A stretch of DNA of 64,000 nt. Origin: Bacillota bacterium (GTDB taxonomy: Bacteria > Bacillota > UBA994 > UBA5500). This document shows, piece by piece, positions 18,681-19,508 of the stretch; within the stretch, counting starts at the first letter, position 1, and every line of letters starts with the position of its first letter. The translations under genes and the position numbers were made by a program. The DNA lies in the NCBI GenBank assembly GCA_029781045.1, contig JAKOXL010000033.1:1-64000 (forward strand), written 5' to 3'. A model generated the notes under the pieces. It was given only the letters and a program-made list of their open reading frames with translations, made no database searches and was not told the DNA's origin.

Positions 18681-19238
18681 TTATGCCTGGGAAGGAACGC
18701 GCCAACAGCGGCGATCGGTCACCACATAGCATAAGGGATGATCCCAGGGATCCGCATCTATAGCCTCCACCAGCTGCCAATCGTAGCCGTAACCAATGGT
18801 CAAGCAAGCGGGTGACACCTGCGGTAAGAAGCGGTCATAATAGCCGCCTCCATAACCAATGCGGTAACCCCTAAGGTCAAAGGCAGCCCCCGGCACAATG
18901 ACCGCCTGTAAACTGGCCGGCTCCACTATCTCATAACTACCGGGAGCCGGCTCTAAGATACCATAGGCTGCCGGGCGCAGTGCATCTAGACTAGTTACCA
19001 ATGCTGGGGTCAGCCGCCGGGTGGCCCTATCGGTCAGGGGCAACACCACTTCTCCACCCTGTTCTTCTAACCAGCGAGCCACCATCAGTGTATCCAGTTC
19101 CCCTCTAAACGGCATGTACAACATAACCCGCTCGCTGCCGGTAAGCAGGGTCTGAACCTGTAATAGAGCCCCTTCTGCTGCCTGCTTACGCGCCTCTTCC
19201 GTCAATGCCAGACGCCGGGTCAACATGGCCTGGCGCAT
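18681..19238 (-). CDS. 5-formyltetrahydrofolate cyclo-ligase
   Basis: ATP-dependent conversion of 5-formyl-THF to 5,10-methenyl-THF, recycling folate for one-carbon and purine metabolism. About 185 residues. The family signature is clear: VPGAAFDLRGYRIGYGGG followed by YYDRFL near 120-140, and the N-terminal KKEMRQAMLTRR carries the ATP-binding basic residues. ATG at 19238 is preferred because GGAG lies 9 bases upstream; the TTG at 19253 lies inside that site. It stands alone after the DnaA-box region. Confidence 0.92.
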   Translation of the reverse strand: MRQAMLTRRLALTEEARKQAAEGALLQVQTLLTGSERVMLYMPFRGELDTLMVARWLEEQGGEVVLPLTDRATRRLTPALVTSLDALRPAAYGILEPAPGSYEIVEPASLQAVIVPGAAFDLRGYRIGYGGGYYDRFLPQVSPACLTIGYGYDWQLVEAIDADPWDHPLCYVVTDRRCWRVPSQA

Positions 19239-19409
19239 TTCCTTTTTCTCCAATACTAGTCGCCACCTTCGTCAAAGTATGCGTTGTCAAGCATAAACAT
19301 CCCGCATTCCCACTGTCGAAAGGTGTTGATTAACGTAAAGGGGTTTATTCCCCGCTTGTCAACAGAATAGTCCACAGAAGGAATGCTGATTTCTAAGTTA
19401 TCCCCCGTT

Positions 19410-19504
19410 TTATCCACATTATCCACAGAAACTACATAATACAACTTCCTACTTTTCCACAGACTCTAGACTATGCACCTCAATATATTCACAGCTTATC
19501 CACA
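19410..19504 (+). promoter_or_regulatory. Cluster of DnaA boxes
   Basis: Three perfect TTATCCACA boxes: 19410-19418 and 19419-19427 head to tail without spacer, and 19496-19504. Two near matches lie between: TTTTCCACA (19453-19461) and ATATTCACA (19485-19493). All have the same orientation. The cluster lies in the gap between the cyclo-ligase and tsaD and is not next to dnaA or dnaN in this window. It could be a secondary initiation region, a DnaA-titrating or regulatory cluster, or the real origin. Confidence 0.8.
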
Positions 19505-19508
19505 GCAA

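Follow-up and report, generated by a model that had tools for sequence, protein, structure and literature searches.

An array of eight DnaA boxes, all in one orientation, was found directly downstream of tsaD in a 64,000-nucleotide stretch of DNA from a Bacillota bacterium (hereafter, the window). Because the same array stands at the same place across much of Bacillota, including a known DnaA site of Bacillus subtilis, its probable role is that of an ancient brake on replication. The gene called gcp in B. subtilis is tsaD, and it is likely that this ancient cluster, at the same site as the gcp-ydiF cluster of that organism, holds ATP-DnaA cooperatively and lowers the amount of free DnaA available to oriC.

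Layout of the array

The whole array lies in a 255-bp gap between a gene for 5-formyltetrahydrofolate cyclo-ligase and tsaD. Eight plus-strand matches to the DnaA box TTATCCACA were found in this gap, three of them perfect, one with one mismatch and four with two mismatches. All eight are antisense to tsaD. The features of the locus are as follows:

18681..19253, minus strand: 5-formyltetrahydrofolate cyclo-ligase gene, a variable neighbor (Pfam PF01812, E 1e-31)
19254..19508, no strand: intergenic region with the array
19356..19364, plus strand: weak box TTGTCAACA, two mismatches, lying at -54 relative to the head-to-tail pair, a phylum-wide peak
19368..19376, plus strand: weak box TAGTCCACA, two mismatches, at offset -42, a phylum-wide peak
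19398..19406, plus strand: weak box TTATCCCCC, two mismatches, at offset -12, invariant in four family members
19410..19418, plus strand: perfect box TTATCCACA, first of the head-to-tail pair
19419..19427, plus strand: perfect box TTATCCACA, second of the head-to-tail pair, 0 bp from the first
19453..19461, plus strand: box TTTTCCACA, one mismatch, perfect in the relatives G001 and G002
19485..19493, plus strand: weak box ATATTCACA, two mismatches, stronger in relatives
19496..19504, plus strand: perfect box TTATCCACA, 4 bp from the tsaD stop codon
19509..20516, minus strand: tsaD (gcp), tRNA t6A synthesis, the gene linked to the array across the phylum (Pfam PF00814, E 4e-102)

The initial annotation had described three perfect boxes, two of them head to tail without a gap, and these were confirmed at 19410, 19419 and 19496 on the plus strand. 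The single orientation and the position between the cyclo-ligase gene and tsaD also held, and both genes were confirmed by Pfam. Two one-mismatch boxes had been counted as well. One of them is TTTTCCACA at 19453, whereas the other, apparently ATATTCACA at 19485, differs from TTATCCACA at two positions and is one mismatch away from the degenerate TTATNCACA. The same-strand sites TTGTCAACA, TAGTCCACA and TTATCCCCC are additional to that count. These weak boxes at 19356, 19368 and 19398 were counted as parts of the array because their offsets from the head-to-tail pair are exactly -54, -42 and -12. A structured single-stranded element was rejected, since folding of the array as a single strand gave an energy that was ordinary for its composition (z -0.18, DNA parameters).

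DnaA boxes in the genome

That the cluster was very unlikely to have arisen by chance, as had been supposed, was supported by controls with scrambled 9-mers and with the reversed motif. Scrambled 9-mers gave at most 2 sites per 96-bp span of the window, and the DnaA box gave 4 (with at most one mismatch). Throughout the genome (2.0 Mb), 32 perfect boxes were found versus 12 matches to the reversed motif. Three perfect sites in 95 bp would be expected approximately 6e-5 times per genome at the reversed-motif rate and approximately 1e-3 times at the observed box density.

Other clusters were sought from perfect boxes as seeds, a search that would miss clusters consisting of weak boxes alone. The surroundings of 30 perfect boxes were inspected (all except two on contig C54), and clusters were present only at oriC and at the tsaD site. 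The array 3' of tsaD is the only non-oriC cluster found in the genome from perfect-box seeds.

Relation of the array to the replication origin

The suggestion that the array might be a real origin was not borne out. The dnaA gene was found on another contig (G000:C9:70516; the window is on C45), and an oriC-like group of boxes in both orientations lies just upstream of it. No switch of GC skew occurs within the window, where the skew is -0.03 to -0.12 throughout, and in complete relatives tsaD is located 0.2-1.3 Mb from dnaA. The origin reading was rejected on these three grounds. They also apply to a secondary or ancestral replication origin, for which the clustering of DnaA boxes with a moderately A+T-rich stretch could be cited. 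However, this stretch, the A+T maximum in 40 bp at the array (72.5%, compared with 77.5% in the oriC region), is made largely of the boxes themselves, and such an origin is extremely improbable.

Conservation of the cluster downstream of tsaD

The tsaD loci of 54 genomes of the same phylum and of 80 records with organism names were compared. At least three boxes with no more than one mismatch were present within 600 bp 3' of tsaD in 36 of the 54 genomes and in 21 of 29 families; this set was not random, since 30 loci came from near relatives and one-per-family representatives and 24 were the next best TsaD matches. At least three boxes were found in none of the 54 genomes when the 600 bp upstream of tsaD or 600 bp inside it were considered. 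In the clusters of the first 110 loci, 181 boxes were antisense and 21 were sense. Absence of the boxes from close relatives had been named beforehand as a refuting result, and boxes were found in each of the three closest relatives as well as in far more distant ones.

Among the named bearers of the cluster, Kroppenstedtia, Brevibacillus, Bacillus, Planococcus and Macrococcus belong to Bacilli, Alkaliphilus to Clostridia and Sporomusa to Negativicutes; Paucisalibacillus, Amphibacillus and Saccharibacillus also carry it. In Thermovorax, the array begins in or at the end of tsaD. The cluster was absent from the flank seen in most of the Lachnospiraceae sampled and in some other Clostridia, and no cluster was found in named records of other phyla (Chloroflexi, Deltaproteobacteria, Nitrospina/Nitrospiraceae, Coriobacteriia and others).

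The head-to-tail 18-mer TTATNCACATTATNCACA was present in 178 of 399 genomes of the phylum, and the reversed 18-mer used as a control was present in one genome among the matches listed. Thirty-six of the 89 listed 18-mers, from 35 genomes (60 genomes were comparable), were located no more than 900 bp 3' of tsaD, without exception in the antisense orientation.

In some lineages, the boxes stood farther from tsaD. A tandem antisense pair was found 2, 2.8 and 20 kb 3' of tsaD in family f16 (G027:C1:2139544, G268:C1:2302119, G144:C6:15743 and G221:C1:100562), as if genes had been inserted between tsaD and a retained element. Two Paenibacillus loci had a cluster 2.5-2.8 kb from tsaD with a gene between. 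In other Bacillota families, head-to-tail DnaA boxes also recurred at a second site, near the gene that encodes the ribosome hibernation factor HPF (Pfam S30AE). These HPF-linked pairs were located around 1501-1566 in loci L149, L151, L158-L162, L164 and L165, and several of them had another box 44 bp away.

It was also considered that the array might be an inert relic, consisting of boxes inherited from an ancestral cluster and now decaying without a present role. Half of the boxes in the window are degenerate, and the cluster has been lost in some lineages, as would be expected of a relic. However, in the alignment of the four family members the best-conserved stretches were the block AAGTTATCCCCC...TTATCCACATTATCCACA and the element TGTCGAAAG..TG..GATTAACGTAA, and the core of the array was the best-conserved block of the gap. 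Moreover, the boxes keep their sequence, strand and spacing over many families, whereas the neighboring gene and the remainder of the gap change. A relic is therefore highly improbable.

The depth of conservation, the constancy of strand and the spacing rule are new as far as the literature found is concerned, and the two primary papers on the B. subtilis clusters, Okumura 2012 and Ishikawa 2007, may contain earlier notice of them. Among the papers searched, none dealing with whether the B. subtilis clusters are conserved in other genera was found.

Spacing of the boxes

The commonest spacings between antisense boxes were 9, 21, 12, 42, 51 and 54 bp. When the loci were anchored on the head-to-tail pair (46 loci), additional boxes were found at -12 (50%), +21 (33%), -42 (30%) and -54 (20%). 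The spacing of the boxes is helically phased. Spacings of 25-130 bp had a period of 11.0 bp with R 0.41, and jittered controls gave at most 0.165; this periodicity is a description more than a test, since shared ancestry inflates it and the control was lenient. Dozens of natural variants of the array can be aligned, and the geometry of DnaA assembly outside oriC could be read from them.

The neighboring gene

Pfam searches were carried out with the whole neighboring gene for the window and with 230-residue pieces for the other loci. The gene beyond the array differed between lineages and encoded a cyclo-ligase, ABC-F, Lgt, radical SAM, lytic transglycosylase, Mur ligase, LytR-CpsA-Psr or GAF-domain kinase protein. 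These genes ran in either direction and were often convergent. In Bacillus-like loci, tsaD and the array were followed by a convergent ABC-F gene, the same arrangement as at gcp-ydiF in B. subtilis. Because the neighbor varies between lineages and is often convergent, the array is unlikely to have a conserved role in the promoter of any one gene, and it was rejected as a conserved regulator of a single neighboring gene. The earlier suggestion that it regulates a neighbor thus failed as a conserved function, and a local side role in this family may exist.

Such a role would have DnaA act as a transcription factor upstream of the cyclo-ligase promoter, coupling this gene, and perhaps the following ones, to replication status. 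The boxes lie approximately 50-250 bp upstream of the cyclo-ligase start, and a promoter-like site (19319-19290, minus strand) was found inside or beside a 25-bp element conserved in the family. The cyclo-ligase gene also adjoins the array in some other families, and at some sites in B. subtilis DnaA is known to regulate transcription (PMC4447404). However, the promoter scan was weak (4 sites versus 1.7 expected), neighbors elsewhere in the phylum vary and often converge on the array with no promoter facing it, and the constant partner of the array is the 3' end of tsaD, where there is no promoter. This reading is possible but not probable. The sequence TGTCGAAAGGTGTTGATTAACGTAA at 19313-19337, between the boxes and the cyclo-ligase start, was nearly invariant in the four family members and is perhaps a promoter or an operator.

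The cluster of B. subtilis at the same site

In B. subtilis, the eight regions with high affinity for DnaA include one "downstream of gcp; downstream of ydiF" (Smith and Grossman, PMC4447404). This region contains 10 predicted boxes in 300 bp and is among the strongest non-oriC DnaA-binding regions of that organism; its apparent Kd was 0.15 uM for ATP-DnaA and 0.33 uM for ADP-DnaA, and at 55 nM, 16-fold more DNA was recovered with ATP-DnaA than with ADP-DnaA (PMC4447404). Removal of six non-oriC clusters caused early initiation, which was strong only when all six were gone and was partly relieved by one cluster restored at various places (PMC5295017, PMC13220808). From these three reports (PMC4447404, PMC5295017, PMC13220808), we infer that the gcp-ydiF region was one of the six deleted clusters. 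Judging by its sequence and position, the array is most appropriately classed with the B. subtilis type of non-oriC DnaA-box clusters, at the same site as gcp-ydiF.

The product of ywlC is TsaC, the partner of TsaD in t6A synthesis. Another strong DnaA region of B. subtilis lies upstream of ywlC (PMC4447404 Table 1). That two B. subtilis DnaA clusters flank t6A genes is possibly a coincidence; a literature search for a link between t6A-synthesis genes and DnaA yielded nothing useful.

Proposed function

Among the three readings offered in the initial annotation, titration of DnaA and control of replication timing is the best supported, given the known B. subtilis DnaA region and the phenotype of the six-cluster deletion (PMC4447404, PMC5295017). 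We infer that DnaA binds to the array and is titrated by it. The genome encodes a DnaA with ATPase and DNA-binding domains. This protein would be bound cooperatively to the boxes, mainly as ATP-DnaA, with the head-to-tail pair as the nucleation point, from which binding would spread along one face of the helix to the phased weaker boxes. After initiation, the fork would duplicate the array, which is probably origin-proximal, and thereby increase the binding capacity. The added capacity would leave less free DnaA for oriC, and re-initiation would be delayed.

The source assembly consists of 57 contigs, and the distances between dnaA and tsaD were taken from relatives. Of the 11 near-complete genomes that carry the array at or near tsaD, 9 had a distance of 8-19% of the chromosome and the other 2 a distance of 31-35% (sizes rounded to 0.1 Mb). 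The site in B. subtilis is at approximately 15% of the chromosome (628 kb of 4.2 Mb, PMC4447404). A site near the origin is duplicated soon after initiation, as would be favorable for titration, although tsaD may have kept its position for unrelated reasons. Counting against titration, four of the eight boxes have two mismatches, and in many lineages the flank seen contains no cluster.

Initiation in Bacillota is generally believed to be controlled by proteins acting on DnaA at oriC, and the non-oriC clusters of B. subtilis have been treated as minor. If, in Bacilli, Clostridia and Negativicutes alike, a cluster has been kept at one gene, on one strand and under one spacing rule, it has been under very long selection, and this would argue for a real and general role.

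Comparison with known systems

Like the gcp-ydiF cluster, the array is intergenic, lies directly 3' of tsaD/gcp and outside oriC and contains many DnaA boxes in about 200-300 bp; judging by most of the near-complete relatives, it is probably also on the origin-proximal side. It differs in that the cyclo-ligase gene is co-directional, whereas ydiF is convergent, and in that half of its boxes are weak. B. subtilis has six non-oriC clusters, whereas one was found here from perfect-box seeds; genomes with a single cluster, like this one, avoid the six-fold redundancy that masks the phenotype in B. subtilis. YabA, the anti-cooperativity protein of B. subtilis, was not found in this genome, which was rated 100% complete, and the cooperativity of DnaA must therefore be restrained otherwise, if at all.

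In Escherichia coli, DARS reactivates ADP-DnaA, and its core boxes are oppositely oriented. The array shares with DARS1 and DARS2 the character of a non-coding DnaA-box element with fixed spacing, but all eight of its boxes are on the plus strand. With E. coli datA it shares the character of a non-oriC DnaA-box cluster that would restrain initiation. However, datA acts with IHF and promotes hydrolysis of ATP bound to DnaA, and its gene context differs.

The array might itself actively change DnaA, as a Bacillota counterpart of datA (ATP hydrolysis) or of DARS (nucleotide exchange). Its fixed, helically phased geometry suggests an ordered complex rather than a random sink, and the B. subtilis site strongly prefers ATP-DnaA at low concentration (PMC4447404). 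On the other hand, no factor that converts ATP-DnaA and ADP-DnaA into each other is known in B. subtilis (PMC5295017, PMC13220808), IHF is absent from that organism according to a review, and the boxes do not have the opposed orientation of the DARS core. Such a counterpart is unlikely. It is also conceivable, although doubtful, that an ancestral, Bacillota-wide DnaA-oligomerizing element with fixed 9/12/42/54-bp phasing actively sets the DnaA pool or its nucleotide state and has been kept beside tsaD by selection. If this were true, Bacillota, in which no equivalent of datA/DARS is believed to exist, would possess a functional counterpart of them.

The array that we consider likely to titrate DnaA also resembles the oriC of Bacillota (rpmH-dnaA region), with which it shares the clustering of DnaA boxes and their consensus. 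In this genome, the oriC boxes are beside dnaA in both orientations, whereas those of the array are beside tsaD on one strand.
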